This document shows, in pieces, positions 1-31,874 of a stretch of 40,641 nucleotides of DNA. The stretch is from assembly GCF_020144665.1 (NCBI RefSeq), contig NZ_JAAHBQ010000055.1, forward strand, positions 1 through 40,641, in the 5' to 3' direction. Below the pieces are notes generated by a model that worked only from the letters and a program-made list of their open reading frames with translations, made no database searches and had not been told where the DNA came from. Every line of letters starts with the position of its first letter. Positions within the stretch are counted from its first letter, which is position 1. This DNA is from Oscillatoria salina IIICB1 (GTDB lineage Bacteria > Cyanobacteriota > Cyanobacteriia > Cyanobacteriales > SIO1D9). The position numbers and the translations under genes were made by a program.

Positions 1-10
1 ACTCCTTACT

Positions 11-22
11 CCCCCTTGGGGG
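11..22 (-). terminator. Short GC stem just after the first gene's stop
   Basis: CCCCC-tt-GGGGG lies directly beyond the TAA stop of the transglutaminase-like gene. The loop is too tight and no T-run follows on the minus strand. It is at most part of a terminator or repeat cut by the window edge. Confidence 0.2.
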
Positions 23-2359
23 TTAGGTAGAATTCCTGGAAATAACACGCCGAAAACTACGTTTTAGTAATTGAAATTGTTGGCGCAAATAATCAGTATT
101 GGGTAACTTTTCACCATAGCGCCAATCGATATAAGCTTGGGAAATTTCGGCAATAATTTCCGCCACAGCTTCTTGATGCTGCTGACGAGATAGATCTGCA
201 TATTCCAAAGGAGTTTGGGCTGGATGTTTTTTGTAACCTTTCGCCGCCAAAAGATCGAGCATTTGCTGATATAATCTTGCCATTGGCGGCAGTTTCGTCA
301 ACCTGCGTTGATAACTCCAGCTTCGCAATTGATTCCAAGCGAACCAACCCAGGAAGACAAAAGCGATCGCGCCAATTAAACCGCCAAATAAACCTAACAA
401 ACCACTAGAGAAAAATCGCCACAAGTTAGCAAATAATCTCGTCAGTCCCCCAACAATAATAATCCACAACTGATTAAGAATCGCTGTCACAGGCGAAGGC
501 AGCCAACCAGCAACCCAATTCCAAAACCTACGCAATACCCCAAAAGTCTCATTTTCTTCAATCGAAGGCGGAATTAATTCATTACCAGGAATCGGATCGA
601 AAGTAAACCAACCGTATCCAGGAAAATATACTTCAGTGATTGCTTGAGCATCAGTATTACTAACCAGATAATAGCCAGTAAACGGATTAAAATCACCTTG
701 ATTAAACCCCGTTGCTAATCTCGCCGGAATGCCAATCGAACGCAACATTATGGTTAAGACAGTGGGAAAATGATCCGGATAGCCGCCTTCATACTTAAAT
801 AAAAACGCTTCCACTAAATCTTCATCCTCAGCAAAAAAAGGTAGATCCCCTTGAATGCTATAACGTTGTTTTAAAGCTTGGGCGAGAAATAAAGCCTTTT
901 CGTAAGCAGAAGTAATCGGTTTCGGCGAAGTAGCCAAAATTTCTTCTGTACGTTGGCGAACTTTGGCAGCAATTTCTGGCGGAACTTGTAAATAGTAATT
1001 TTGAATTTCTTCCGGATAATCAGTAGAAGCTGTTCCTAGTGCAGTGCGATCGCGAAATGGGACTTCCGAAACTACCGTATAAGTCAATCCATCCACCAAA
1101 CCCAAAGGCGATCGCAAATCGCCCTCTGGTCCAATAGCTACCTCTCGCGTCGGAAAATAAAGTCTTTCTGGATAAGCTAACGCGGCAATTACATTTGGTA
1201 AATCAGCCACTGCCGTGTAACTTTGAATTACATCTTTGGTTCTAACTCGGGGAACAAAAGTTTGATTAGGGATGAAAAATTGATAAGACCAACTCGGACG
1301 AGTTAGAGTTTCTTCCTCTTCAACACGAGACACTTCCCAACCCTGACCAGTATAGCGGTCAAATGCCAGCACCCGCCAAAATCCCGGTGCTTGGGAACGC
1401 ACCCGCAGCAAAACTTTTGGTTTCAGTTGTCCGCGTAGATTTTGATTAATTTTGGTATCAAAACCATAGTAATAAGTTTCGTCAACTTCTCCGGCACCTT
1501 CACTAGGATTTTGTCCCACACCACCACTACCTTCTTCACTTTCGGTACTACCAGGATTAACAATGCCGCGATTTTCAGGATCGAAACGGACATTATCGAG
1601 ATCCACAGGCGAACTGACAGGTAAGGTTTGCAATTGATAACCGGGAAAGCGCGGCATTAAAGCAAAAATAGCTAACCCTAAACCGACAACAACCAACAAC
1701 AATACGAAAAGACGTTGAGGAGACAGAGGAGAATATTTACTAGGTCGAATTCGATTTAATCTCGTTTTACGAGGAGCATTAGTGGGAGTGGGTAAAAAAT
1801 CTAAACTAGGGAAATTAAGTCGAGAACGATAATCGAGGACTAAAACCGGAAGCGCGATCGCCAAAAACAACAATAAAAAAGGCGCAAAAGCCAAAGTTTG
1901 GGAAATCGTCCCCGCCACACCCAGTAAAATCAAGCCAATGACCATCGAATACCCCAAATCCTTACGTTGGGGTAAATGGAAACTGTGGATAACTTGCAAT
2001 TGCACTAACAACTGAGCCAGAACCAAGCGCGTATCATTTAAATTAGCGAAAATATTCTCAAAAAAAGATGCCAGAGCAAAAAGCATCGCGATCGCTAAGA
2101 CAAACTTCGTGGTAACATTGCGCTTGCGCCGTCGATACCAACTCCAAAAAGCGCCAACAATGGAAAGCGGAATCGCCCACAAACTCATCTGCGTATCTTC
2201 AGCCGCAATATCAGTAGCGACGATTCCCACAATTACTAGCGCCTGTACCAGCACCCGTAACCAAATCGATTCTTCAGTTTGAGGCAAAGGTATTCGAGCA
2301 AAAAACTGTTGCAGTGGGGCAAACAAAGGTAAATGCCCGATCCGATCTGATTTGAACAT
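23..2359 (-). CDS. Membrane protein with TgpA-type N-terminus and degenerate transglutaminase-like domain
   Basis: A 778-residue protein of the TgpA / DUF3488-transglutaminase architecture. A hydrophobic N-terminal third holds about six membrane segments (residues ~35-235). A long extracytoplasmic part follows, with a transglutaminase-like core at ~500-595, a further membrane segment at ~655-680 and a C-terminal cytoplasmic tail of the DUF4129 kind. In active family members the core carries Cys (as in G-x-C-E-H), His (D-A-H-A) and Asp (DP). Here the aligned positions read GGYPDHF with Pro528 in place of Cys, DAQAITEV with Gln572 in place of His, and FDP with Asp588 kept. Transamidase or cysteine-protease chemistry is therefore unlikely, and a structural or binding role on the periplasmic side is inferred. 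It lies 292 bp downstream of patU3 on the same strand, and operon membership is uncertain. The start is the ATG at 2359. Confidence 0.85.
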   Translation of the reverse strand: MFKSDRIGHLPLFAPLQQFFARIPLPQTEESIWLRVLVQALVIVGIVATDIAAEDTQMSLWAIPLSIVGAFWSWYRRRKRNVTTKFVLAIAMLFALASFFENIFANLNDTRLVLAQLLVQLQVIHSFHLPQRKDLGYSMVIGLILLGVAGTISQTLAFAPFLLLFLAIALPVLVLDYRSRLNFPSLDFLPTPTNAPRKTRLNRIRPSKYSPLSPQRLFVLLLVVVGLGLAIFALMPRFPGYQLQTLPVSSPVDLDNVRFDPENRGIVNPGSTESEEGSGGVGQNPSEGAGEVDETYYYGFDTKINQNLRGQLKPKVLLRVRSQAPGFWRVLAFDRYTGQGWEVSRVEEEETLTRPSWSYQFFIPNQTFVPRVRTKDVIQSYTAVADLPNVIAALAYPERLYFPTREVAIGPEGDLRSPLGLVDGLTYTVVSEVPFRDRTALGTASTDYPEEIQNYYLQVPPEIAAKVRQRTEEILATSPKPITSAYEKALFLAQALKQRYSIQGDLPFFAEDEDLVEAFLFKYEGGYPDHFPTVLTIMLRSIGIPARLATGFNQGDFNPFTGYYLVSNTDAQAITEVYFPGYGWFTFDPIPGNELIPPSIEENETFGVLRRFWNWVAGWLPSPVTAILNQLWIIIVGGLTRLFANLWRFFSSGLLGLFGGLIGAIAFVFLGWFAWNQLRSWSYQRRLTKLPPMARLYQQMLDLLAAKGYKKHPAQTPLEYADLSRQQHQEAVAEIIAEISQAYIDWRYGEKLPNTDYLRQQFQLLKRSFRRVISRNST

Positions 2360-19300: not shown

Positions 19301-20942
19301 CTTCGAGGTTGGAACTTGTTTGTGTGTCGCGAAGCTGAGAATCTTCTAGTTTGAGCAACCTATCTGGGCTGTCTGACTCTATTTGAGCAAATAATTCATT
19401 CAATTCGTCAGCATCTTCGCTCCCGAAACGATTTTCTCTGACTAAATCTTTATTTTTGTTCGTTTCTGGGGCTGTGGATAAGGATAAGTCTTCTAATTCG
19501 CCGAAAGTGGTGGGTTTAGCTTGAGTTTCTTCTTCAAAAGCAAAGTCTTCGCCAAATAATTCGCTCAAATCTTCTGCTGAGGATGCGCTTGGGGTTTCGG
19601 CTTGAGTTTCTTCTTCAAAAGCAAAGTCTTCGCCAAATAATTCGCTCAAATCTTCTGCTGAGGATGGGTTTGGGGTTTCGGTTTGAGTTTCTTCTTCAAA
19701 AGCAAAGTCTTCGCCAAATAATTCGCTCAAATCTTCTGCTGAGGATGAGGTTTTTGTCTCGTCAATTGCCAAGATATCTGCTAAATCCTCTTCTTCAGTT
19801 TCTAAATCGGTTTTTAAATCAGTTGTTGGTGGATTGCGGGACTCAACTGGTTTTGCAGTTGTTTCTTCTGCAAACAGATCGCTCAAATCTCGATCCAAAC
19901 TTTTACTGCTAGATTCTTCCGCTTTGTTGACATCACTGAATAAATCGGCAAAATCTCCTGTCTCGATTTCGAGATTGCTGTCAACTTTTTCTTCGGATGC
20001 AAAATCGGGTTCTTCACCTGCGAAAAGATCGGCTAAAGTGTTTAATTCTGCCATTCCCACTTCCGGTTCGACAGTAATCAGTTGGTTATTTTTGCCGACT
20101 GCGGTGAGTTTGGCTGATTCTGAAGTTGCAATGGTTGGTGAGGTTTTTTTGCTCGCTATTGCTTGCAGTTGCTGACTGGCTTTAATTTCGTCACCGCGAT
20201 TTGCCACGACAAGTTCTGCTGCTTGTTTAATTTCTTTAACGACAATGCTGGCTAGTTTGGCAGTAGAATTTTGTGGATTGGCGATCGCTCTTGAAGCTGT
20301 TTGTAACAATTTTACCCAGTTTTTCTGTCCTTGATTGGCTCGCAGATGAACGAGTTTCTGACAGCTATTTTGCAGTTTGACACGGTTTTCTGGCAGATCT
20401 GGCTGCTTAAACAACTCCAGCATTGCTCGTAACTGAAGCAAAACTTGCTTGTGAAAGTTTTGCTGTTGGTTGGAGGCTTTCTTTTTCTGGGCTGGCTGTT
20501 TGCTTGCTGATTTGCTTTTACCGTAAGCAAGTTCTTTGAGTTGGCGATCGATTTGAGGAAAAAGTGGCTCTACTTCTGCCATTAATGATTTTCCTACGGT
20601 TTCGGGGATACCGCCCGGTTGTTGCAAGTGTTTGAGGAGTTTGTCTAGCACGGCAAACACCTGCATTAATTTTGATTTTAGTTGTTCGTTAACCTTAACT
20701 GGCGATTGTTTGAGAAATTTAAAATAATCTTCTAAGTGTAGGGCTGTTTTTTGAATGCTACCCAGATTTAACATTGCTGCTCCCCCTTTGATTGAGTGGG
20801 CTGCACGGTATACTTCTTGGATAGCTTCGGGATCTGCTAATGTCTCTGCGAGATTGGTAATCCCTTGTGAAATCGTTTCGAGGTATTCTTTTGATTCTTC
20901 TATAAAGTAACCTGTAATTTTTTGTAGTTGTTCTTGTTCCAT
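16341..20942 (-). CDS. CheA-type hybrid histidine kinase with Hpt and two receiver domains
   Basis: A 1533-residue cytoplasmic chemotaxis/phototaxis-type kinase. In order: an Hpt domain (~1-105) with phospho-acceptor His49 in AAHSIKGGA; a very long acidic Ser/Glu-rich linker (~110-715) with three 27-residue repeats (~398-473, FGEDFAFEEETQ); the dimerisation helices (~722-920, LKVPVKQMDNLSNLVGELVV); a HATPase domain (~925-1075, HLINNALTHG, DDGAGID, GRGVGMDVV, GKGTTFTI); a CheW-like coupling domain (~1080-1230); receiver 1 (~1252-1370, LIVDDS, DIEMPRMDG, TSRG, TKPY); and receiver 2 (~1403-1522). Both receivers keep Asp-Asp, the acceptor Asp and Lys. Family members in cyanobacteria drive type IV pili or phototaxis. 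No cheW, receptor or pil gene lies nearby, so this copy is an orphan whose pathway I cannot name. Confidence 0.93.
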   Translation of the reverse strand: MEQEQLQKITGYFIEESKEYLETISQGITNLAETLADPEAIQEVYRAAHSIKGGAAMLNLGSIQKTALHLEDYFKFLKQSPVKVNEQLKSKLMQVFAVLDKLLKHLQQPGGIPETVGKSLMAEVEPLFPQIDRQLKELAYGKSKSASKQPAQKKKASNQQQNFHKQVLLQLRAMLELFKQPDLPENRVKLQNSCQKLVHLRANQGQKNWVKLLQTASRAIANPQNSTAKLASIVVKEIKQAAELVVANRGDEIKASQQLQAIASKKTSPTIATSESAKLTAVGKNNQLITVEPEVGMAELNTLADLFAGEEPDFASEEKVDSNLEIETGDFADLFSDVNKAEESSSKSLDRDLSDLFAEETTAKPVESRNPPTTDLKTDLETEEEDLADILAIDETKTSSSAEDLSELFGEDFAFEEETQTETPNPSSAEDLSELFGEDFAFEEETQAETPSASSAEDLSELFGEDFAFEEETQAKPTTFGELEDLSLSTAPETNKNKDLVRENRFGSEDADELNELFAQIESDSPDRLLKLEDSQLRDTQTSSNLEELEDIFAEFDSTTNESIETSADLNELFATAKTDSHDSETPGDSLANLLSDETAPPVVPTSKPKEAVQTETASIEYFEQFDELEAMLDRPIPEANELDETNNCDFEKLEAWLEQPAKAVVAALVEVEEETTVTEAGSESLVEEDFADLEELLDLATQTMGGPPTAVTTPTPRYSRQTRVSDQTLKVPVKQMDNLSNLVGELVVNRNSLEQDEERLRQFLDNLLHQVGQLSDVGGRMQDLYERSLLESALLANRSSYDRGSTGAAANISAGSRSDRHDRHGDYDPLEMDRFTGFHLLSQEMIELIVRVRESTSDIEFLVDEINQVARVLQQVTNQLQEGLTKSRMVPFAETAIHLPGAVKRICMKLNKEAKLHIEGRETSIDKMILEHLSDPMKHLINNALTHGIEPQQVRLAAGKPAAGQITIRAFHQGNQTVISVSDDGAGIDPERVKNKAVGIGLITKRQAANLSDIEVYELLFHAGFSTKDKADDFAGRGVGMDVVRTSIREIRGTVTIDSTLGKGTTFTIRLPLTLSICKALCCISNKNRIAFPMDGVEDMLDVPHSEIQTTSDGNHCIRWRDRQLNFQPLCELLTYNRQIGRSQHYAGKREDDLISIVILRSAGSLLAIQVDQVLGEQEIVIKQLSGPVPKPPGIAGATVLGDGRVMAIADVLELIDISQGRIRKDGANILWRKDTTNATPEPSTVKSEPLVLIVDDSITVRELLSITFTKSGYRVEQARDGHEAWEKLSSGLPSDIVFCDIEMPRMDGLELLSRMQKDEELSSIPIAMLTSRGADRHRQVAAQLGASGYFTKPYLEEALLDAAQRMIKGEVLLPNSTRKSKPQPIPTEPPTLIQEVRPKSEIKVLIVDDSVVVRELLSATFKKAGYQVEQARDGQDAWEKLNSDLGFDIVFCDIEMPRMDGLKLLSQLQEDEKLSQVPVAMITSRGAKKHQQKAADKGAKGYFVKPYKEPELLDAAERMLKGEVLLKAEAI
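19521..19747. repeat. Three tandem 81-bp repeats inside the kinase gene
   Basis: Units start at 19521, 19602 and 19683 with an exact 81-bp period. Identical blocks such as GCAAAGTCTTCGCCAAATAA recur at 19540, 19621 and 19702. Each unit encodes 27 residues including DLSELFGEDFAFEEETQ. The copies are nearly identical at DNA level, which points to recent duplication or active expansion and contraction without frame loss. Confidence 0.95.
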
Positions 20943-22913: not shown

Positions 22914-24047
22914 TTATATTTCCATAATTGAAAGGACATATTCTCCTTGATTAACTGATTTATTAGTAGCTACATCAAAAACTATTCCTGTAGCTTCGGC
23001 GCAAATTTCGATCGCCGTTGGTACTTTTCCTTGCTTGTTAAAGCTAAGGAGTTGATAAAGTCGATCTCCTGGTTGCACTCTACTTCCTAAAGGAACTATT
23101 TCTTGAATCATTCCACCACCAAAAGTATAGTATTTTTTAATTTTACTTTTCTCAACCAAGGTGATTTGATGTTTCGCAGTTTCAGCGAGAGGAAATTCAG
23201 CTAATTGAAGCATTTCTTTAGCAGCTAAGTAATTAATAATTCCGCGAAAACCTTTGTCAACAGACTCTCGTTCCATCTGCATTCCCGAACCTAATTCGAG
23301 CGTCCAAGATTCCAAATCAAATCTAGTTTCTTGTCCCAGTTGAGCTAATTTTTTTTCTAAAGCTAGCCAAGGTTTGATAAAAGCTTCGTCAAAAGCATCA
23401 CCATCATATTCATTGAGAACAATCCCATAATCGAGGAGAAAATATTTAGCACTATCTTCGCGACTTTGGGAACAATAAAGATAATCGATAGCTTGGTTAC
23501 TCGAACTATGAATATCGAGCGCATAATTAGCATCTAAACATAATGATTGTAAGATATAGCGATACTGTTCGTGATAAGGAAGACTGCTAGGTTGGTGAAT
23601 TTTGGCAATTTGTTTTTGGAAAGCAGCTTGGATTACTTCCAGAAAATGATACCTAAGTTCTTCAGTTTCTTCAGTAATATTTTTCGAGACAAAAGAATCT
23701 AAGCGATTTGTTTCTTTTTCATAATCCCAAAAAATGCGGTTCCAATCTTTGCCATCATAACTATTGTAGCGACCCGAAGCAAAAAAATGACTGCGTTGAT
23801 TGGTACTAAGAGGGTTACAAACAGGAACAAGCCAAATTTCGCCCTCAAGTTGAGTTGATTCTAAACTAGAAAAAAACTCAATTAATTGGTGAATAACAGC
23901 ATTACCGACAATTTCTGCACCGTGCAGGTTACTTTGAAGATAAGCTTTTTTACCTGGTTTCGAGCCAATAAACTTGTAAACTTGGAGAGAAAGGCGATCG
24001 CCAGATGCTAGTTGTAGTAAATCGAAGGTGTCAATTTTGGGGATCAT
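22914..24047 (-). CDS. Succinylglutamate desuccinylase/aspartoacylase-type zinc hydrolase
   Basis: A 377-residue AstE/AspA (M14-like) family protein. A zinc site is visible: the first HxxE element as LHGAE (~41-45), a PVCNPLSTNQRSH segment with the Asn-Pro and Arg typical of substrate binding, and the second zinc His in ALDIHSS (~178-184). The Glu in LELGSG (~264) is the likely catalytic residue. The last ~85 residues form a beta-rich biotinyl/lipoyl-like tail (KSKIKKYYTFGGGMIQEIVPLGSRV...) seen in many deacylases of this family. The substrate cannot be deduced; these enzymes remove acyl groups from N-acyl amino acids or related amides. It is divergent from the receptor/vWA/tubulin operon (184 bp). 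Confidence 0.85.
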   Translation of the reverse strand: MIPKIDTFDLLQLASGDRLSLQVYKFIGSKPGKKAYLQSNLHGAEIVGNAVIHQLIEFFSSLESTQLEGEIWLVPVCNPLSTNQRSHFFASGRYNSYDGKDWNRIFWDYEKETNRLDSFVSKNITEETEELRYHFLEVIQAAFQKQIAKIHQPSSLPYHEQYRYILQSLCLDANYALDIHSSSNQAIDYLYCSQSREDSAKYFLLDYGIVLNEYDGDAFDEAFIKPWLALEKKLAQLGQETRFDLESWTLELGSGMQMERESVDKGFRGIINYLAAKEMLQLAEFPLAETAKHQITLVEKSKIKKYYTFGGGMIQEIVPLGSRVQPGDRLYQLLSFNKQGKVPTAIEICAEATGIVFDVATNKSVNQGEYVLSIMEI

Positions 24048-24231: not shown

Positions 24232-25827
24232 GTGAATCCAAAGGGTGAATGGACTTGCGATGGAGTGCCGAAAAATGATGCTTATTCCTCTCAGGGTACA
24301 GGTCCCCATCCCCCACATCAAAATACGGGTCCCGATTGTGCAGTTTGTGGTTTACCTAGGGAAGCAATGGAAACCTCTAAGAAATCGAAGACAACTGTGG
24401 TTTCTAATCCAATTGGTTCGTCTAAACCGGGATTAGTTCCCATTTTACTAGCGGTAGTTGGGGTAATTCTGTTGTTGGGTGTGGGGTTCGGTTTGTATCG
24501 AGTTGTTGCGACGCGAAATAATAATGTCTCAGATTCAGGGACGACAGAATTTGTTAGTAGCAATGCGGTTAATGAAAGTTTAATTTCTCAAGGTGAGAAA
24601 GTTTTATTAGAGGTAACGCCAGCAAAAAGCAGTGCTGCGTTAGCATTTACAAGTAAAGATTGGTTAGAAGCGATCGCGCTTTATCAACAAGCAACTGATA
24701 GCGATCCTAACGATCCCGAAAGTAAAATTTATCTGAATAATACCCAAGCTATCCAAGCTGGTAATCCTTTAACGATCGCCGCAGTGGTTCCGATTTCCTC
24801 TAGTAGCGATACGGCTAAGGAAATCTTGCGCGGTGTGGCTCAAGCTCAAGATGAGTTTAACTCATCGGCTCCCCCTGGAGGTCGTTTGTTACAAGTTGCG
24901 ATCGTCAACGATCCTGAACCGACAAAATCGGCTACTTTGGCGCAAGATTTAGTTCAGTCGCCAAATATTCTGGGAGTATTAGGACATGGAATCGATAGCG
25001 GTAGTCGTCAGGCGATCGCAATTTATGAGCAAAATAATTTAGCGGTACTTTCTCCGGTGAGTACGAGTATTACTCCTAGTGGTGATGGGAATTCGACGGT
25101 AAAAACTATTCCCCAAACTGAGAAAACTGGTGAGTTACTGGGTAATTATTTGCAAACGGTGGGGATCACTTTGGCTAAATACGCTAATACTCAACAATCT
25201 TCCCCCGCAGCAGTGGTTTTCTTTAACTCTGATAGTCCCTACAGCGAATTACTCAAACGCGAATTTATTAACGCTCTTTCACAACAAAATGGGAGAGTAG
25301 TTAAAGAAGTAGATGTGACAACGGCTGATGTTGCAACGGAAATCAATGCTGCTTCCCAAGCAGGTGCAAACATAGCGATGCTGGCTTTAAGTAAAAATAA
25401 GGTTAACCAAGCTGTAGAACTCGCCCAAGCTAATGCTAACCTACCTCAACCCTTAACCTTAATTGGCGGTGACGAACTGTATAACCCGACAATTCTCGTT
25501 GAAGGAGGAGACGCGATCGCGAATATAGTTTTAGCAGTTCCGTGGCGATCGCAACCTAACGATCCTTTTGCGGCAGACGCAGCTAACATTTGGAAAGGAA
25601 GGGTAAGCTGGCGTACTGCTACCGCTTACGATGCTACCCAAGCTTTAATTCAAGCTATTAGTCAAAACTCTACCCGCGAAGCCGTTTCCCAACAACTCGC
25701 AAGCGGTATCCCCATCGAAGGTACAAACACCGAAGCGAACGTTCTTGAGGAAGTTCCTCTCGTTCAAGCAACTCCCGGTACTCAAGGACCTCCCGGTTCT
25801 AAATATCAATTCGATCCTGTTCCCTAA
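24232..25827 (+). CDS. Membrane-anchored periplasmic-binding-type receptor with N-terminal Zn-ribbon-like and TPR-like segments
   Basis: A 531-residue protein with an unusual order. Residues 1-45 form a cytoplasmic zinc-ribbon-like stretch (Cys9 in WTCDG, then the CAVC pair at ~36-39 in GPDCAVCGLPRE, with several His in between). A single membrane helix spans ~67-90 (PILLAVVGVILLLGVGFGLY). A TPR-like helix pair follows at ~133-170 (DWLEAIALYQQATDSDPNDP). A type I periplasmic-binding fold (~178-520) starts TIAAVVPISSSSDTAKEIL and resembles the Leu/Ile/Val and amide receptors. There is no lipobox and no ABC permease or ATPase nearby, so transport is unlikely and ligand sensing is inferred. It starts at GTG 24232, with a GGAG about 10 nt before. 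It opens a three-gene operon; the next start is 29 bp on. Confidence 0.85.
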   Translation: MNPKGEWTCDGVPKNDAYSSQGTGPHPPHQNTGPDCAVCGLPREAMETSKKSKTTVVSNPIGSSKPGLVPILLAVVGVILLLGVGFGLYRVVATRNNNVSDSGTTEFVSSNAVNESLISQGEKVLLEVTPAKSSAALAFTSKDWLEAIALYQQATDSDPNDPESKIYLNNTQAIQAGNPLTIAAVVPISSSSDTAKEILRGVAQAQDEFNSSAPPGGRLLQVAIVNDPEPTKSATLAQDLVQSPNILGVLGHGIDSGSRQAIAIYEQNNLAVLSPVSTSITPSGDGNSTVKTIPQTEKTGELLGNYLQTVGITLAKYANTQQSSPAAVVFFNSDSPYSELLKREFINALSQQNGRVVKEVDVTTADVATEINAASQAGANIAMLALSKNKVNQAVELAQANANLPQPLTLIGGDELYNPTILVEGGDAIANIVLAVPWRSQPNDPFAADAANIWKGRVSWRTATAYDATQALIQAISQNSTREAVSQQLASGIPIEGTNTEANVLEEVPLVQATPGTQGPPGSKYQFDPVP

Positions 25828-25856
25828 TTAGTTGTCTCACCTCTTACCTCAAAAAA

Positions 25857-26774
25857 ATGACTTTCTCTCGTCGTCCTTTGTGGTTGTATCCCTTATTTCA
25901 AATTCCCCTAATTTTGTTGGGTATTTTCTTAGCAACAGCATTACTTTTCTGGCTATTTGGGATTGGTAGACCGAATGTAGCCGTAGCTATTGGTTTGGAT
26001 CTGAGTACGAGTACCTATGCACCCCAAGAATTTAACGCCCCAGGTACAGTAATGTCTCAGGAAGTAGCGGCGGTGCGATCGTATTTAGACATCAACGATC
26101 GCCTTTTACGTCAACCAAACCAAGTGCAAGTATTTGGGTTTGGAGGAGTTACAATCTCGCTAACTGGTGATTTTCAAACCGACAGTCAAAAAATCAACGC
26201 AGAATTAACTCAAGCCTTACAAGATCCCAATTTACCTCAAAGCGTCGCTAACGAAAGCACCGACATTAATTTAGCCATCCAAAGTGGGATCAATGCACTC
26301 AGCCAAATTAGCGATCGCTGTCGAGAATTTCTCTTAGTCACCGACGGTGGCGCCCCCGTTTCCGCCGAAATCATCGCTAACGCGAGATCCCAAAGAGTCA
26401 AAATCAATACTGTTATTATCGGGGGCGAATCTTTAGAATTACGAGCAGCAGCTTTTGCCACTAGAGGTAACTATCACACCACTGCTAGCAACAATCTCGA
26501 AACCTTATTTACCGAACGATTATTCACCAGTTTCAACAGCAATCTCAAATGGATAATCTTCTGGCTAGGTGCAGCTTGGATAGCTTTAATGTGGACGCTA
26601 GTTTTACCTTTAGATCGTTGGCTTTTCCAAAATATAATGCAAATGCCCATTAATTTAGCAGGTCAATTAGCATTAGGAAACGCCTTCTTCTGGACTGCTG
26701 CCACCCCAGGAATTATCATCGGCATCTATCGCTTATTAAACCTTTCCGGCTTACCCTTCTTTTCTAGTTGTTAA
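25857..26774 (+). CDS. Membrane-anchored von Willebrand factor A domain protein
   Basis: A 305-residue protein. Helix 1 spans ~12-35 and is preceded by SRR, placing the N-terminus inside by the positive-inside rule. A vWA domain (~40-220) follows with a complete metal-ion-dependent adhesion site: Asp48-x-Ser50-x-Ser52, a Thr in ESTDINLAI (~139) and Asp in LVTDGGAP (~162). Two or three C-terminal helices (~229-250, ~272-292) return to the membrane. The vWA domain is thus predicted to be periplasmic, on the same side as the binding domain of the preceding gene. vWA domains bind protein partners through the metal. Middle gene of the receptor-vWA-tubulin operon; an 81-bp gap with a palindromic repeat precedes the tubulin-like gene. 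Confidence 0.87.
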   Translation: MTFSRRPLWLYPLFQIPLILLGIFLATALLFWLFGIGRPNVAVAIGLDLSTSTYAPQEFNAPGTVMSQEVAAVRSYLDINDRLLRQPNQVQVFGFGGVTISLTGDFQTDSQKINAELTQALQDPNLPQSVANESTDINLAIQSGINALSQISDRCREFLLVTDGGAPVSAEIIANARSQRVKINTVIIGGESLELRAAAFATRGNYHTTASNNLETLFTERLFTSFNSNLKWIIFWLGAAWIALMWTLVLPLDRWLFQNIMQMPINLAGQLALGNAFFWTAATPGIIIGIYRLLNLSGLPFFSSC

Positions 26775-26780
26775 AACCCT

Positions 26781-26825
26781 CGTTACCTAGCTCCGCCTGG
26801 TAACGCCCTCCAGAGGCTCCCCCTC
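26781..26825. repeat. Palindromic repeat between the vWA and tubulin-like genes
   Basis: CGTTACC...GGTAACG (26781-26805, inner AG/CT pairs, loop CTCCGC) is followed by GAGGCTCCCCCTC (26813-26825). The combination looks like a dispersed cyanobacterial repeat (CTCCGCCTGGTAACG type). It could reduce read-through or stabilise the upstream mRNA within the operon. Confidence 0.6.
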
Positions 26826-26842
26826 CCCCGAAAATCATCACC

Positions 26843-26849
26843 AAAGGAG
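26843..26849 (+). promoter_or_regulatory. Ribosome binding site of the tubulin-like gene
   Basis: AAAGGAG with a 6-nt spacer to ATG 26856. It is strong and fixes the start. Confidence 0.7.
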
Positions 26850-26855
26850 TAACCA

Positions 26856-29800
26856 ATGCCAGCACAAACAGAAGAAAAAAGTATGGTTCCCACAGTCCTC
26901 GTCGGCATCGGCGGAACCGGAACCGAAGTCTTAGCCAGAGTACGAAGATTAATCGAAGAAACCTACGGCAGCTTAAACAAATTTCCCATCGTTAGTTTCC
27001 TAATTATCGATACCGACAAAGATTACAAAATTAATAACACTGAAGCCGGAGGTTCCCCCTTCAAAGATAACGAAAAACACTGGGCAAGAGTAAGCGGCAA
27101 ACAAGTCCGAGAAATGGTCGCCGACATGGAAAATTATCCTTGGATTGACCGTTGGTTTCCCAGAGAATTAGAGCGAAATATCACCTCCCTTGAAGCAGGT
27201 GCGGGACAAATTCGCGCTTGCGGACGCTTCGCTTTTTTCTGCAATTATCACGAGATTCAAAAGAAGTTTCTTGAAGCAGTTAATCGCACCAAGGGCAAAG
27301 ATAATTTCATGTTAAACGAGTATGGAATTAAAGTAAATAGCGGCAGTATTAATGTTTTCGTTACAGGTTCTTTATCCGGCGGTACGGGTAGCGGAATGTT
27401 AATCGATATCGGCTACTGCGTTCGTAACTGGCTAAAAAAAGAACAAAGTCCCCTCATAACTGCAATTGTCCCCACCCCAGAAGCTTTTGCAGGTATCAAT
27501 GTTGGCGATAAAGTCTTAGCAAATGGCTATGCGGCGATGATGGAATTAAGTTATTTTTCCGATTATCGCACCGAATATGTCAGTCAATTTAGTAGCGGTT
27601 TAGTTGACGAAGTTCGCAGCAAATCGGCGCCCTTCGATTTCACCTATTTAGTAGGGACAAAAAATGGGGAAAGTGACTTTAAATTAGAGCAAATTCGGGA
27701 AGCGATCGCTCAAAATATTTTCCTCGATTTAACCTCTGATTTTTCTCCTCATAAACGTTCAATTCGCGATAACATTAAAAGTGCTTGGGCGCAAGCAGAT
27801 CCTGGCGGACGAGGCTACCCGAAAAACTTTATGAGTTTTGGGCTATCAACCATCGAAATTCCGATCGCGCAAATTCGTACTTCTTTAAGTAACCGAATCG
27901 CTCAAGATTTAGTTAGTTGGTGGCTGAATGAAAAAGTAAATTTGCATCCACAAATGCGCGAATTTGTGCAAAACGATATTCTCAAAAGAATGCGCCTTAC
28001 CGAAGCAGAAACGATCGCCGATATTTCTGCCGCCCAAGATCGTTCTTATCTGGCAATAATTTCCGACTGGATTAACAGTATTCGTCAAGAAATTGCTAGT
28101 GAAAATTTACTCCAATGTACCCAACAAGGTGTCAATATGTTGGGGCGAGAAAAAGGTAAAATCCTGCAATTCGTTGATGGATATTTAAAACCCAAAGTTG
28201 ATGAATATCGCAGCAATCATTTTCGCGAATTAAGTACCGACGAACGCTTACACGGCGATTACTTGCAGAAAATGTACGACAATCGGAATCAATTAGTTAT
28301 CCGAGGTCGTCAAAGTTTAGAAAGCGAATTTTATCGCATTTTAGAAGACCGCACTCAAGGACCCAAATTCGCAGCTAGCTTTATTGTGACTGTGCGGCAA
28401 ATCTTGGAAGATATGGCGGAAAAATTCCGTTCCCAACGCGATAAAATTTGGGAACCAAAAGAAAACGAACGTCAAAAACAATACGAACAAGGACTTCAAG
28501 ATTTAACCGAATTTAAAGACAAATTTGGCACAACTAAACAAGCAAAAATGGAGCAGTATTGTGAAAATGCTCTCAGTGGTTTAGAAGGTACTTTAATCGC
28601 GATAATTCAACGCAAAGCGCGGTCAATAAGCTTAGATGTAATCGACCGCTTACAAGAGCATTTAACCTTATTAGAACGACGTTTTAATCGCTGGCAACAA
28701 AAGTTAATTCAAACCCGCGATTTGTACAAAGAAAAAGCTGACAAGCAGGCTAAAAGCGCCGATGCTTTAGTTATTAACGGGATTAAACTATACGATCGCC
28801 AAGAACTCAATAGCTTGTATCAAGACTTAATCGAACAGCTAGCAGGTGCAACAGTAGGTAACAAAACTGCTTATGAAACTGGTATGGATTCGATTTGTAG
28901 TACCATGTCTCAAGATGTTCTCGATCGAGCAAGTTCCTTGTGGAAAGAAACCCGTGCAGCTAACGAAATTATGCGGCTATTTGACATTACTGAAATTCCC
29001 GATGTCAAAGATGAAGATTTCCAGCAAATTATCTTCGAGCGCACGAAAAAAGTAGTAGAAGAGGCGCCCCAAACAAGTAAAATTAAACAAGAATTAGCTG
29101 CCTGCGATCGCATCTTTAAGCTTTACAATGACAATAGCGAAATTGTCAATAATATTCGCATTGCTTTTAACAAATCTAAACCTTTAATTCTCCTCAATCA
29201 AGCTGTATTACGCGGCAAAGATGCCAATTTCACCCCCGCACTAAATGTCAATGTTGCTGTTTTAGGAGGTCGGAAAACTAGCGATCCTGCCGCTCAAAAA
29301 TTTATTCCCATGTTACAAGAATTTATTGGCAATGAAGATGCCATTAAACCATTAGGAGATCCCGAACGCCATCGCATTATTTTTGTGCAAGAAATTGGTG
29401 GTTTTTCTCTGCGGTGTATTGATGGAATGCGCGATTTACGACAGTCTTACCAAGATTGGAAAGGTGAATTTATTGTCGCTAAACGAGCGCAATTAAAAGG
29501 TGAAAGTCGCGATTTACCCGTTCCCGTTCACATTCAAAAAGAACCGCCTTTCTGGGACATATTTCCTGAAGATCCGCGCGTTTTTTACTTAGTAGTCCAA
29601 GCGAGAGCATTAGATATTCTTCGCCAAGAAGAAAACAAAGCTACCAAAGAAAATTCGATTCGCTATACAAAATCAACTGCGATTGGCGAACAAAAAGTCG
29701 ATCTGGCTTCGAGTTGGGAAGAAGTAACCCAAGTGTTAGAAATTAAAGCTTGTCGTGAAGATCGCGAAGAAATTCAACGTCAATTGTTGCAAAAATTAAA

Positions 29801-30182
29801 TGCGGCTGATACTGAGGCGAAAAAACAAGCCTTATTTCGGCAATTACTTGCTTATTTAGAGCAACGTGCGTTAGAATTAGAAGGAGGAAAAGATAGTCCA
29901 GATTATAAACGAGAAGCACAAATTATTCTCAATTTAATCGAAGCCAAAAAACTAAAAACTGCAACTGAAATTTCCCTCCAATCAGAGCAAATTAAACAAC
30001 CCGTAAAAGTTACCCAACCAGTAAATTCAACAGGTGTACCTAATCAAATAGAGGGAAATAATGGTGCGAGAAATCAACAAGATCCGACACCGCGAAGTCA
30101 CGTTTTTTGCACTAACTGCGGTACGCCAAATCCGGCTAATTCTAAATTTTGCTTTAAGTGCGGCACAAAGTTAGTTAAGTGA
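26856..30182 (+). CDS. Tubulin/FtsZ-superfamily GTPase with C-terminal zinc ribbon
   Basis: A very large (1108 residues) protein of the bacterial tubulin-like group (Tubulin_2 type). The N-terminal nucleotide-binding part shows the glycine loop VGIGGTGTEVLARVRRL (~15-31) and the tubulin signature TGSLSGGTGSGMLIDIGY (~169-186, equivalent to GGGTGSG). A second domain follows to ~370. A long helical, probably coiled-coil region (~385-760) comes next, then an alpha/beta part (~790-980), another helical stretch and a four-Cys zinc ribbon at the extreme C-terminus (C1085, C1088, C1099, C1102; FCTNCG and FCFKCG). It is more than twice the length of FtsZ, so extra domains dominate. Related tubulin-like families are known in bacteria beside vWA proteins and are thought to remodel membranes. 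Whether this one hydrolyses GTP or polymerises is unknown. Third gene of the operon; no membrane helix. Confidence 0.9.
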   Translation: MPAQTEEKSMVPTVLVGIGGTGTEVLARVRRLIEETYGSLNKFPIVSFLIIDTDKDYKINNTEAGGSPFKDNEKHWARVSGKQVREMVADMENYPWIDRWFPRELERNITSLEAGAGQIRACGRFAFFCNYHEIQKKFLEAVNRTKGKDNFMLNEYGIKVNSGSINVFVTGSLSGGTGSGMLIDIGYCVRNWLKKEQSPLITAIVPTPEAFAGINVGDKVLANGYAAMMELSYFSDYRTEYVSQFSSGLVDEVRSKSAPFDFTYLVGTKNGESDFKLEQIREAIAQNIFLDLTSDFSPHKRSIRDNIKSAWAQADPGGRGYPKNFMSFGLSTIEIPIAQIRTSLSNRIAQDLVSWWLNEKVNLHPQMREFVQNDILKRMRLTEAETIADISAAQDRSYLAIISDWINSIRQEIASENLLQCTQQGVNMLGREKGKILQFVDGYLKPKVDEYRSNHFRELSTDERLHGDYLQKMYDNRNQLVIRGRQSLESEFYRILEDRTQGPKFAASFIVTVRQILEDMAEKFRSQRDKIWEPKENERQKQYEQGLQDLTEFKDKFGTTKQAKMEQYCENALSGLEGTLIAIIQRKARSISLDVIDRLQEHLTLLERRFNRWQQKLIQTRDLYKEKADKQAKSADALVINGIKLYDRQELNSLYQDLIEQLAGATVGNKTAYETGMDSICSTMSQDVLDRASSLWKETRAANEIMRLFDITEIPDVKDEDFQQIIFERTKKVVEEAPQTSKIKQELAACDRIFKLYNDNSEIVNNIRIAFNKSKPLILLNQAVLRGKDANFTPALNVNVAVLGGRKTSDPAAQKFIPMLQEFIGNEDAIKPLGDPERHRIIFVQEIGGFSLRCIDGMRDLRQSYQDWKGEFIVAKRAQLKGESRDLPVPVHIQKEPPFWDIFPEDPRVFYLVVQARALDILRQEENKATKENSIRYTKSTAIGEQKVDLASSWEEVTQVLEIKACREDREEIQRQLLQKLNAADTEAKKQALFRQLLAYLEQRALELEGGKDSPDYKREAQIILNLIEAKKLKTATEISLQSEQIKQPVKVTQPVNSTGVPNQIEGNNGARNQQDPTPRSHVFCTNCGTPNPANSKFCFKCGTKLVK

Positions 30183-30234: not shown

Positions 30235-30501
30235 CTAGCGATCGCCAGTTAGATATTTTGCTAACATTTTCTCAATTTGCTTAACTGAGGCGCGTGGAGA
30301 AGGGCGGGGTAGGATTTGCTCTTTTCCTCCTTGGCTGACAGATAATACTGGTACTTCGTATTGGTAAGCGGCAAACCAATCTTCACGAGTAGTAATATCT
30401 CGCATTTCGAGGTCGAAATGCGGTTCTTGTATTTGGGCTAACTTTTCTGCTAGTCCCTCGCAGAGGTGACAACCAGGTTTGCCATAAAGAATCAGTAGCA
30501 T
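30235..30501 (-). CDS. Glutaredoxin-like thiol-disulfide protein
   Basis: An 88-residue thioredoxin-fold protein of the DUF836/glutaredoxin-like group. The redox motif is Cys11-His-Leu-Cys14 (KPGCHLCEGL). The cis-proline loop is at EVPVLSV (~49-55) and a C-terminal helix begins at SVKQIEKMLAKYL. The protein is short, with no signal peptide, so it works in the cytoplasm, where it may reduce disulfides or glutathione adducts. It is convergent with the tubulin-like gene (52 bp) and divergent from cysH (90 bp). A role near thioredoxin/glutaredoxin-dependent PAPS reduction is tempting but is only inferred from this adjacency. Confidence 0.85.
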   Translation of the reverse strand: MLLILYGKPGCHLCEGLAEKLAQIQEPHFDLEMRDITTREDWFAAYQYEVPVLSVSQGGKEQILPRPSPRASVKQIEKMLAKYLTGDR

Positions 30502-30591: not shown

Positions 30592-31326
30592 ATGGCAAGC
30601 CATACTACTCTCAGCCCAGTTCAAATTTCTCAGCTTGACCTCGAAGAACTTAATCAACGCTTTGAGAAAGCCGATCCGAAAGAAATTATCGCATGGGCGG
30701 TGTCTAATTTCCCGACTCGCTTGGTGCAAACTAGCGCTTTCAATATTGATGACTTAGTTATCACTGACCTGATCTACCGCAAACTTAAGCCAGCAAAGCC
30801 AGTTCCGGTGTTGTTTCTCGATACTTTGTTCCACTTTCGGGAAACGCTGGAATTGGTGGCAAAAGCTAAAAGAATTTATCATCTCAACCTCAAAGTATCT
30901 CAAACCCTGAATGTTAATAGTCGCGAAGAATTTGCGGCTAAGTATGGCGAAGCTTTATGGGAAAAAGACGTAGCTAAATTCCATGAAATCACGAAAATTG
31001 AGCCTTTGCAACGGGGATTAGCTGAGTTAAAGGCAGGAGCTTGGATTACCGGGCGGCGACGGGATCAAGCGCCAACTCGCGCTCATATGCCAATTCTGGA
31101 ATTAGATAACCAAGGACGTTTAAAAATCAATCCCCTGGCTAACTGGACTCGTAAAGAAAGTTGGGCGTATGCTTATGAATACGACCTAATTTACAATCCT
31201 CTCCACGATCGCGGCTATCCTAGTATTGGCGACGAACCTTTAACTACTAAAGTTGGTCAAGGCGAAGACGAACGCGCCGGACGTTGGCGTGGTATGAGTA
31301 AAACTGAGTGTGGTATCCACCTGTAA
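30592..31326 (+). CDS. cysH: Phosphoadenosine phosphosulfate (PAPS) reductase
   Basis: A 244-residue assimilatory reductase that converts PAPS to sulfite with electrons from thioredoxin or glutaredoxin. Seen: the nucleotide-binding region around TSAFNIDDLVITDL (~43-56), LDTLFHFRETLELV (~79-92), the ITGRRRDQAPTRA phosphosulfate loop (~153-165) and the C-terminal catalytic tail KTECGIHL with Cys240. The CC...CC pairs that hold the [4Fe-4S] cluster of APS reductases are absent, so this is the cluster-free, PAPS-specific type. The length is typical. It is a single gene followed by a palindromic terminator-like repeat at 31334-31360. Confidence 0.94.
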   Translation: MASHTTLSPVQISQLDLEELNQRFEKADPKEIIAWAVSNFPTRLVQTSAFNIDDLVITDLIYRKLKPAKPVPVLFLDTLFHFRETLELVAKAKRIYHLNLKVSQTLNVNSREEFAAKYGEALWEKDVAKFHEITKIEPLQRGLAELKAGAWITGRRRDQAPTRAHMPILELDNQGRLKINPLANWTRKESWAYAYEYDLIYNPLHDRGYPSIGDEPLTTKVGQGEDERAGRWRGMSKTECGIHL

Positions 31327-31391: not shown

Positions 31392-31874
31392 TTATGCGGC
31401 TTTTTTCTGATTAGGCTTTTTTTTACACTTACGAGTTGGTTTTTCCGGTTCAACAAAATCTAGAATCCAGTTCAACATCCCTCTGATTTTGCGCTTAAAA
31501 GGATTTCTTTTAATTCCGAGAGTGGTGTCGAAGCTTTCGTAAGCTTTCTGATAGTCTCCCATGTGTTGGAGTGCCATTCCTCGAAATAACATCGCTAAAT
31601 TATCTTCTGGTGCTACTTTTAAAGCTTCTTCAAAGCTAATAAGTGCTTCTTCGTAGCGATCCAAATGAGTTAGCGCTGCACCCCGCAACACCCAAGCAGT
31701 GTTATCATCAGGCTGCATTTCTAAATACTTATCGTAGCTGGCGATCGCTTCTTCGTATTTAGATTCGCTAGCTAGCTGCTGCCCTTTTTGATAGAAGTAT
31801 TGGCGATCGTCACGAGGATTTTTTGATGGTTGATTTGGTGTGGTACTTTGCTGGTTCATCATTGCTGTCAGCAT
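31392..31874 (-). CDS. TPR repeat protein
   Basis: A 160-residue soluble protein. Three consecutive tetratricopeptide repeats occupy ~28-130 (QYFYQKGQQLASESKYEEAI, AWVLRGAALTHLDRYEEALI, AMLFRGMALQHMGDYQKAYE), each with the Gly8/Ala20-type spacing. The C-terminal tail is basic (~135-160: RKCKKKPNQKKAA). TPRs form a protein-binding groove, and the tail could touch RNA or acidic membranes. The first ATG is at 31874; an internal ATG pair near 31860 (MMNQQS) is an alternative start. No partner is evident from context. Confidence 0.82.
   Translation of the reverse strand: MLTAMMNQQSTTPNQPSKNPRDDRQYFYQKGQQLASESKYEEAIASYDKYLEMQPDDNTAWVLRGAALTHLDRYEEALISFEEALKVAPEDNLAMLFRGMALQHMGDYQKAYESFDTTLGIKRNPFKRKIRGMLNWILDFVEPEKPTRKCKKKPNQKKAA

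Follow-up and report, generated by a model that had tools for sequence, protein, structure and literature searches.

What business does a tubulin-like GTPase of the cytoplasm have with proteins that face the outside of the cell? FtsZl1 proteins (the Tubulin_2 family, PF13809) and their vWA partner have been known since 2010, when they were described from sequence and their function was only predicted (Makarova and Koonin, PMC2875224). The reviews printed with that paper asked how a cytoplasmic tubulin works with outside-facing partners and whether filament-forming structural elements are present (PMC2875224). The locus considered here, from Oscillatoria salina IIICB1, brings both questions back. 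Within the window (the whole stretch of DNA analysed, 40,641 nucleotides) three genes lie on one strand with gaps of 29 bp (receptor/vWA gene) and 81 bp (vWA/tubulin gene), just as an earlier, sequence-only reading had placed them:

24232..25827, + strand, receptor gene (531 aa): zinc finger, one transmembrane (TM) helix, TPR-like stretch and type I periplasmic-binding domain
25857..26774, + strand, membrane vWA protein (305 aa) with three predicted TM helices
26856..30182, + strand, tubulin-superfamily protein (1108 aa) of the FtsZl1/Tubulin_2 family
30400..30423, + strand, candidate terminator-like hairpin 3' of the tubulin gene and possible operon end, not above the chance count of the hairpin scan

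Are these three genes a unit at all? The sequence-only reading depended on their being conserved together, and they are, in a set of 388 genomes from the order to which the window belongs, its own genome among them. Receptor and tubulin are both present in 59 of these, with 2 receptor-only, 24 tubulin-only and 303 having neither. The corresponding values for the vWA protein and the tubulin are 65, 2, 18 and 303. By genus (149), both, partner-only, tubulin-only and neither number 22, 2, 19 and 106 for the receptor and 35, 0, 6 and 108 for the vWA protein. These are raw genome tallies that ignore kinship. Misses are also possible, as the searches scored no more than 3, 2 and 6 candidates in any one genome. 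A broken tubulin piece (G051) was omitted from the tally and four contig-end or broken tubulins (G346, G353, G345, G292) were counted. Of the 83 tubulins, G153 and G267 stand out with an identity of only 33-34%. A receptor had to exceed 300 bits, which leaves out divergent tubulin neighbours like the ones in G130 and G202. At least 11 of the 24 tubulin genomes (out of 83) that lack a receptor above 300 bits have a divergent or swapped finger-bearing receptor near the tubulin.

In 39 of the 71 named clade-B loci the genes run receptor-vWA-tubulin; another 9 of the original 80 belonged to other clades or were fragments and were set aside. Named and unnamed loci are partly the same record (for instance L187/L133, L185/L142, L169/L035) and the two sets are not summed. 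The set is carried by Arthrospira, Crocosphaera and Spirulina genomes. Could the genes simply be chance neighbours with separate roles? They do come apart in some lineages. Microcystis carries receptor and tubulin only, and in 12 genomes (genus taken as Microcystis from matching tubulin positions) these two lie at separate places with no vWA match. However, co-occurrence is strong even where the genes are apart: of 20 genomes picked for having no tubulin beside the receptor in the fetched stretch, 18 do possess a clade-B tubulin, either farther down the same contig or at another place in the genome, and only two have the receptor without one. The arrangement is beyond chance because it recurs in dozens of genomes. 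Together with the repeated order and a finger shared by receptors with swapped sensors (see below), these counts already contradict the chance reading, which we consider highly improbable. The three genes are a conserved system.

The tubulin is the easiest member to place:

26895..27914, + strand, GTPase domain, residues 14-353 (PF13809, E 2.9e-113)
27375..27395, + strand, T4 loop SGGTGSG, residues 174-180 (G175-S179 in 49/49 aligned tubulins)
27954..29210, + strand, helical insertion, residues ~367-785, with a long helix pair at 502-553 and 561-637 (AF2 secondary structure)
29238..29570, + strand, putative resumption of the second tubulin-type domain, residues ~795-905 (from the ranges of the structural matches)
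30105..30173, + strand, C-terminal zinc ribbon, residues 1084-1106 (PF13240, E 1e-7)

The tubulin fold, the SGGTGSG signature and the ribbon had all been read from the letters, and all three are borne out. PF13809 is found in 45/45 chosen clade tubulins, and the AF2 model, searched at full length, matches CetZ, FtsZ and tubulin from residue 10 to ~850-905, across the large helical insertion. All 50 listed matches end at model residues 851-905. CetZ (3zid, 4b46) is the best of them (Z 24.0, 309/342 residues aligned), and FtsZ 2vxy gives Z 20.5 with 274/306. With its 342 residues, the CetZ chain has no room for a helical insertion of ~420 residues or for the C-terminal module. In their AF2 secondary structure the long helices fit the coiled coil and helical C-terminal part of FtsZl1. 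Conserved acidic residues lie near 291-305 and could belong to the catalytic T7 loop. The C-terminal module varies, being a PF13240 ribbon in 26 of the 45, SHOCT in 8 and GYF_2 in 3. Both tubulin sets (45 and 49) were chosen from the loci, and most near-identical sequences, such as those of Microcystis and Laspinema, were omitted.

The second member is a membrane protein:

25977..26483, + strand, vWA domain, residues 41-209, MIDAS D48xS50xS52, T135 and D163 (AF2 pLDDT 93, Foldseek, conservation)
26319..26321, + strand, Cys155, half of a proposed disulfide, kept or lost jointly with the C-terminal Cys
26544..26735, + strand, TM2, the next helix and TM3 (residues 230-293), retained in forms without the vWA domain
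26769..26771, + strand, C-terminal Cys305, other half of the proposed disulfide, kept or lost jointly with Cys155

The window's protein has no Pfam match by itself, and two scanned homologues pass PF13519. AF2 models it as a vWA fold (pLDDT 93), for which Foldseek finds a TFIIH subunit best (E 3.4e-10) and the vWF A3 domain at E 3.5e-8. The full MIDAS claimed earlier is in place. Among 59 homologues D48 is kept in 59, S50, S52 and D163 in 58 each and T135 in 44, the other 14 having D at that position. Exact duplicates were removed from this set and homologues below 270 aa were listed separately as short forms, a list that includes contig-end pieces (L088, L189) and broken ones (L204, L223).

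Which side of the membrane does the vWA domain occupy? The sequence-only reading relied on the positive-inside rule, and the rule fares unevenly. A hydropathy scan finds two TM helices, and the AF2 model and several homologues have three. The rule agrees at vWA TM1 (21 for, 2 against, n=36), is weak at the receptor helix (20 for, 9 against, 15 ties, n=44) and points the contrary way at vWA TM2 (6 for, 23 against, n=36). Better evidence comes from the conserved cysteine pair. Cys155 and the terminal Cys are both present in 58 of the 59 full-length homologues, both absent in one and never found singly. This is consistent with a disulfide, and hence would put the vWA domain and the tail outside.

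The vWA domain is separable from the membrane part. Short forms without it occur in three separate parts of the tree and arose at least three times. Since the full form is the more frequent one, we read them as losses; the count itself does not distinguish gain from loss. The idea of the vWA domain as an obligatory core is rejected on account of these membrane-part-only forms.

It is the receptor that bears most directly on the opening question:

24250..24348, + strand, Cys-His-Cys-Cys finger, residues 7-39 (W7 C9 G11 H26 C36 C39), presumed to bind zinc
24433..24501, + strand, TM helix, about residues 68-90 (hydropathy; end approximate)
24766..25722, + strand, LivJ-type binding domain, the swappable sensor, residues 179-497 (PF13458, E 2.3e-20)

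The membrane helix and the ligand-binding fold of the earlier description stand, the latter with a PF13458 match of 74 bits (curated cut-off 31.7) and solved structural relatives 3hut, 4mlc and 2liv. The TPR pair does not: in Pfam there is about one repeat, and only below the curated cut-off. What had been called a zinc ribbon is a compact pattern, W-x-C-x-G..H..N..C-x2-C, for which the Pfam scan of the window's receptor gives no match. It is not of the RanBP2 type, which we take to follow a four-cysteine pattern, C..C..C..C; the receptor has C, H, C, C. The finger is invariant in 44/44 aligned receptors (20/20 in a smaller alignment). The 44 rows are 41 from named loci plus the window, L032 and L039. 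L160 (truncated where its contig stops), the split receptor of L223 and, for L229, a second receptor-like ORF were not included. In a set of 120 genomes (own included) the finger is present in 29, 25 of them among the set's 26 tubulin-bearing genomes. LivJ-type receptor-like ORFs are spread far wider than the system (323/388 genomes at E 1e-10). The finger had been proposed to pair with the ribbon of the tubulin. That pairing is rejected, since the tubulin ribbon is found in 26/45 and is otherwise replaced or absent, whereas the receptor finger stays in 44/44.

While the finger remains, the domain behind it is exchanged. The place may be taken by a binding protein of amino-acid, phosphate or phosphonate type, by a Ppx/GppA-like domain or by a coiled coil. 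The outer domains of the 44 receptors include 31 of LivJ type (PF13458), 4 of PstS type (PF12849; forms in Microseira, Symploca and Desmonostoc), 2 of PhnD type (PF12974) and 1 PF02541. Among solved structures, the swapped sensor of L184 is related to phosphate-binding proteins and that of L221 to PhnD. On a quick tubulin tree the sensor changes at least 8 times, with labels from Pfam where scanned, otherwise from a receptor profile made here, and with unlabelled rows uncounted. This invariant finger before the TM helix, paired with an exchanged outer sensor domain, is new here, as are the short vWA-protein forms, the jointly kept cysteine pair and the extent of the tubulin model's structural match.

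LivJ-, PstS- and PhnD-type domains are transporter families. What if the binding protein hands its ligand to an ABC permease encoded at an unlinked site, with the tubulin positioning that transporter? The 2010 referee indeed proposed transport or signalling (PMC2875224). However, none of the neighbours scanned on the two flanks (22914-24047, 30592-31326, 31392-31874) is a transporter by Pfam, and the receptor is TM-tethered with its conserved finger before the helix. We therefore think solute uptake very unlikely. Another thought is that the receptor and the vWA protein do no more than anchor a tubulin-like scaffold, the outer domains binding wall or envelope material without any signal. This would suit the outer domains of L039 and L241, which resemble coiled coils, and also the vWA protein's membrane part occurring without its vWA domain. 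Nevertheless, most outer domains are solute-binding folds, as counted above, and such a static anchor seems unlikely to us.

How, then, might the parts work together? The explanation we favour, with some confidence, is a transmembrane solute-sensor complex controlling a membrane-tethered tubulin-family GTPase. The receptor probably faces outside and binds nutrients. Its outer domain would bind a small solute; in the LivJ-type form of the window this would be an amino-acid-like ligand, and in swapped forms phosphate or phosphonate. Its single TM helix would relay the state to the cytoplasmic zinc finger. The vWA protein would be the membrane partner, with three TM helices and with its vWA domain and C-terminal tail disulfide-joined outside. 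The receptor/vWA pair would hold the cytoplasmic tubulin-fold GTPase at the membrane, and the GTPase would assemble or be released according to receptor state. The cellular output could be the organisation of the inner or thylakoid membrane, which is a guess. A bolder version, which we put forward tentatively and rate somewhat below an even chance, is that a modular receptor family (nutrient-sensing outside, zinc finger inside) directly switches a tubulin-family cytoskeletal GTPase, its sensors being exchanged between amino acid, phosphate and phosphonate as lineages change diet. If true, outside chemistry would directly control a bacterial tubulin.

A quite different possibility is a membrane-linked conflict system, anti-phage or self-limiting. 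Tubulins with a helical or coiled-coil C-terminal part occur with a membrane vWA protein, its domain outside, in the GAP1-N2 systems described in 2020 in firmicutes and actinobacteria (eLife 2020, PMC7159879). In addition, one copy of the present system is plasmid-borne with an SNase-fused receptor, no vWA gene being seen there. However, the GAP1-N2 systems are built on double GTPases and FNIII proteins (PMC7159879), and on inspection of the scanned window neighbours none of these, nor a GAP1, was noticed. PADLOC anti-phage profiles match none of the three proteins (0 families up to E 1), and the window neighbours look like housekeeping genes. These include a PAPS reductase (Pfam) and two genes that, from their sequences, look like Era and SbcD. 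There is one clade-B copy in 8/9 genomes (two in G059) and one in each genome of another set of 21. A conflict role is thus quite unlikely. The plasmid collection yields 9 records and the phage collection 1, of which only a Cylindrospermopsis plasmid is close (58% identity).

Pho-box control of the operon was considered and is rejected. Scanned with a Pho-box consensus, 17 upstream regions gave no consistent signal; L032 alone stood out, with a score reached by 2/200 shuffles, and the next region's was reached by 20/200.

How does the set compare with FtsZl1 as first described? Common to both are the tubulin N-terminal domain, the coiled coil with a helical C-terminal part and the adjacent vWA gene (PMC2875224). 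The 2010 loci include OmpA-like proteins, kinases and a P-loop GTPase as well, and the main text of that paper describes no conserved receptor (PMC2875224), whereas here the third member is a zinc-finger receptor with swappable binding domains. The sequence-only reading had offered a binding-protein receptor, a membrane vWA protein and a predicted tubulin-fold GTPase as one set, which holds, and as a combination without known experimental description in cyanobacteria, which must be qualified as regards print: the 2010 referee pointed to one binding-protein neighbour in Arthrospira (PMC2875224). The invariant inner finger and swappable outer sensor make a concrete bridge from a cytoplasmic tubulin to outside-facing partners. 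The second tubulin domain also appears recognisable in the model, unlike in the 2010 description as far as its main text goes, and the model's match from residue 10 to ~905 may bear on the question of filament-forming elements.

Cyanobacteria also have another FtsZl1 type (most of L043-L063), in which a vWA-sized membrane gene of ~370 aa, called vWA from its size and the main text of the 2010 paper (PMC2875224), adjoins a tubulin of the same family. However, the tubulins are ~23-39% identical over the aligned part. The zinc-finger receptor was not seen in the fetched stretches, and the partners are different ones, of ~500 aa and ~220 aa.

The three-gene set is a real, conserved and modular membrane system. 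Its best reading, held with moderate confidence, is that solute receptors act on a tubulin-family GTPase. As described before from sequence, all three open reading frames lie on one strand, separated by 29 and 81 bp:

24232-25827, plus strand, receptor, with a PF13458 match
25857-26774, plus strand, vWA protein, with no Pfam match in a scan of the window protein itself
26856-30182, plus strand, tubulin of the FtsZl1 family, with PF13809 (Tubulin_2) and a C-terminal zinc ribbon

The surrounding genes look ordinary. The Pfam scan names an AspA/AstE-like enzyme, a PAPS reductase and a TPR protein in the flanks, and two more neighbours we take, from their sequences, to be Era and an SbcD-like protein. 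Further upstream (16341-20942, minus strand) is a CheA-like hybrid kinase of 1533 aa with Hpt, CheW and two receiver domains.

The core pair of this system is already known: FtsZl1 and its vWA neighbour were first described by Makarova and Koonin (2010; PMC2875224). In the printed review of that paper the referee Jekely pointed to a branched-chain amino-acid binding component adjoining FtsZl1 in Arthrospira platensis, and proposed a role in transport or signalling. The survey of the window's order shows that this neighbour is widespread there. What is added here is a receptor slot with an invariant inner zinc finger and an exchangeable outer sensor. Elsewhere, firmicute and actinobacterial tubulin and vWA systems have been classed with conflict systems (eLife 2020; PMC7159879), and in a 2023 phylogeny the one role of Tubulin_2 proteins is that of a divergent root (PMC9871819). 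Among the open-access literature matches listed, none reports experiments on the cyanobacterial set.

The window's own genome has one Tubulin_2 gene. A tubulin search of 60 genomes, this one included, revealed two levels of relatives: a close one (64-69% identity, plus one further paralogue at 40%), termed clade B, and a distant type, 26-39% identical along part of the length, that has other partner genes. Receptor, vWA and tubulin searches were then compared on a common set of 388 genomes from the order, with the best few candidates per genome scored. A clade-B tubulin is present in 83, a receptor above 300 bits in 61 and the vWA protein in 67.

Co-occurrence of each partner with the clade-B tubulin
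Partner and unit; both; partner only; tubulin only; neither
Receptor, 388 genomes; 59; 2; 24; 303
vWA protein, 388 genomes; 65; 2; 18; 303
Receptor, 149 genera; 22; 2; 19; 106
vWA protein, 149 genera; 35; 0; 6; 108

The sequence-only reading had taken the three genes to be one system, and their co-conservation bears this out. Fisher values, uncorrected for the species tree, are extreme. In at least 11 of the 24 tubulin genomes lacking a receptor above 300 bits, a finger-bearing receptor, divergent or swapped, lies close to the tubulin. Twenty-three genomes were inspected for the tubulin. Three (G004, G096 and G170) were already known to have it beside its partners, and the other 20 were picked since the fetched stretch showed no tubulin beside the receptor (in a few, a contig end). 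A clade-B tubulin is present in 18 of these 20; G043 and G158 have the distant type only and no clade-B tubulin.

Among 80 named loci, 71 are clade B. Of the 71, 39 read receptor, vWA (full-length or short), tubulin, and two have all three genes in another order; eight have vWA and tubulin, and two receptor and tubulin. The tubulin stands alone at 20, including Microcystis and Laspinema, some close to contig ends. Uma2-type genes (L040:3276-5245) or a GNAT gene and a TacA-like antitoxin gene (L037:9992-10823) can lie between receptor and vWA genes. In Crocosphaera watsonii WH 8501 (L212) the tubulin frame is in three pieces and the receptor has 438 aa, beside a full-length vWA gene; this system may be decaying. 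A tubulin about 70% identical lies on a contig labelled Candidatus Gracilibacteria (L162), possibly a misbinned cyanobacterial contig.

The tubulin fold attributed to the third protein is also recovered. Loops T1, T3 and T4 are conserved across 49 sequences (T1: G19, G20 and G22 in 49/49, T21 in 48/49; T4: G175-S179 in 49/49). The AF2 model (49 rows, pLDDT 85.5, pTM 0.70) best matches CetZ (Foldseek E 1.5e-4; by VIA, Z 24.0, 309/342 residues aligned, model residues 10..884). FtsZ 2vxy aligns over 274/306 residues (model 10..851, chain 11..316). All 50 structural matches listed have spans ending at model residues 851 to 905, which means that part of the known second domain is matched by residues past the helical stretch. 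These span ranges suggest that the protein has a second tubulin domain, split by a helical insertion (about 367-785) that contains a long pair of helices. Makarova and Koonin (2010; PMC2875224) described the C-terminal part of FtsZl1 as without similarity to known second domains, and gave as one option that the missing elements are "present but extremely diverged". The C-terminal module of 45 chosen tubulins is a PF13240 ribbon in 26, SHOCT in eight and GYF_2 in three; examples of replacement of the window's ribbon are GYF_2 in Cyanothece sp. BG0011 (L178:8590-11931) and SHOCT at L039:5872-9261. Two different clade-B tubulins stand in tandem downstream of one vWA gene at L241:4615-11537, possibly a two-subunit tubulin. 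About 5 kb past them, on the opposite strand, are two zinc-finger/TM/coiled-coil-like genes.

Two homologues of the window vWA protein pass PF13519. Its AF2 model (36 rows, pLDDT 93) has a vWA fold with one membrane helix before and two after; its top Foldseek matches are vWA-fold TFIIH subunits (E 3.4e-10), and the vWF A3 domain gives E 3.5e-8. Across 59 unique full-length homologues the MIDAS residues are D48 in 59, S50, S52 and D163 in 58 each, and T135 in 44, with D at that position in 14. Cys155 (or a Cys at most two positions off) occurs together with a Cys among the last four residues in 58/59, and 1/59 lacks both. Because there are three TM helices, the two cysteines lie on one side, and the simple reading is a disulfide outside the cytoplasm. 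The positive-inside rule had been used to place the vWA and binding domains in the periplasm and the GTPase in the cytoplasm. Charge counts agree at vWA TM1 (N-terminus inside 21 vs 2, n=36) and mildly for the receptor (20 for, 9 against, 15 ties, n=44), but disagree at vWA TM2 (23 against, 6 for, n=36). In several lineages the membrane part also occurs alone (113-220 aa; L143, L185, L187, L203 twice, L209, L218 and L222). By eye, the two segments each contain a cysteine in some of these short forms, and others have none. Full and short forms have interchanged at least three times on the tubulin tree, a quick tree with 10/44 inner branches open. One short form (L203:15655-16317) carries an extra C-terminal stretch past the last TM helix, without a Pfam match.

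The receptor is modular: a constant finger (Cys-His-Cys-Cys, presumably zinc-binding) ahead of the TM helix, and a differing domain behind it. The W, C, G, H, C, C pattern is invariant in 44/44 aligned receptors. By Pfam, the sensor is PF13458 in 31, PF12849 in four (Cyanomargarita, Microseira, Symploca, Desmonostoc), PF12974 in two (Anabaenopsis and a Cylindrospermopsis plasmid, whose receptor carries SNase as well) and PF02541 in one; by difference, six have none of these, including the coiled-coil-like L039. Top solved relatives are branched-chain amino-acid-type proteins for the window receptor, Sll0540 and phosphate-binding proteins for a PF12849 form (L184) and PhnD for a PF12974 form (L221). 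The sensor has changed at least eight times on the same quick tree (10/44 inner branches open). Outside genomes with the system the finger is rare: it occurs in 29/120 genomes, 25 of them clade-B, in a set with 26 clade-B genomes. Receptor-like ORFs as a class are much more widespread (323/388 genomes at E 1e-10). Two further zinc-finger/TM proteins are possible extra receptors, one at a separate locus with a PsbP_2 outer domain above cut-off (L240:4587-5411) and one whose PsbP/DcrB-like outer domain stays below cut-off, with a clade-B tubulin about 2 kb away (L257:497-1312).
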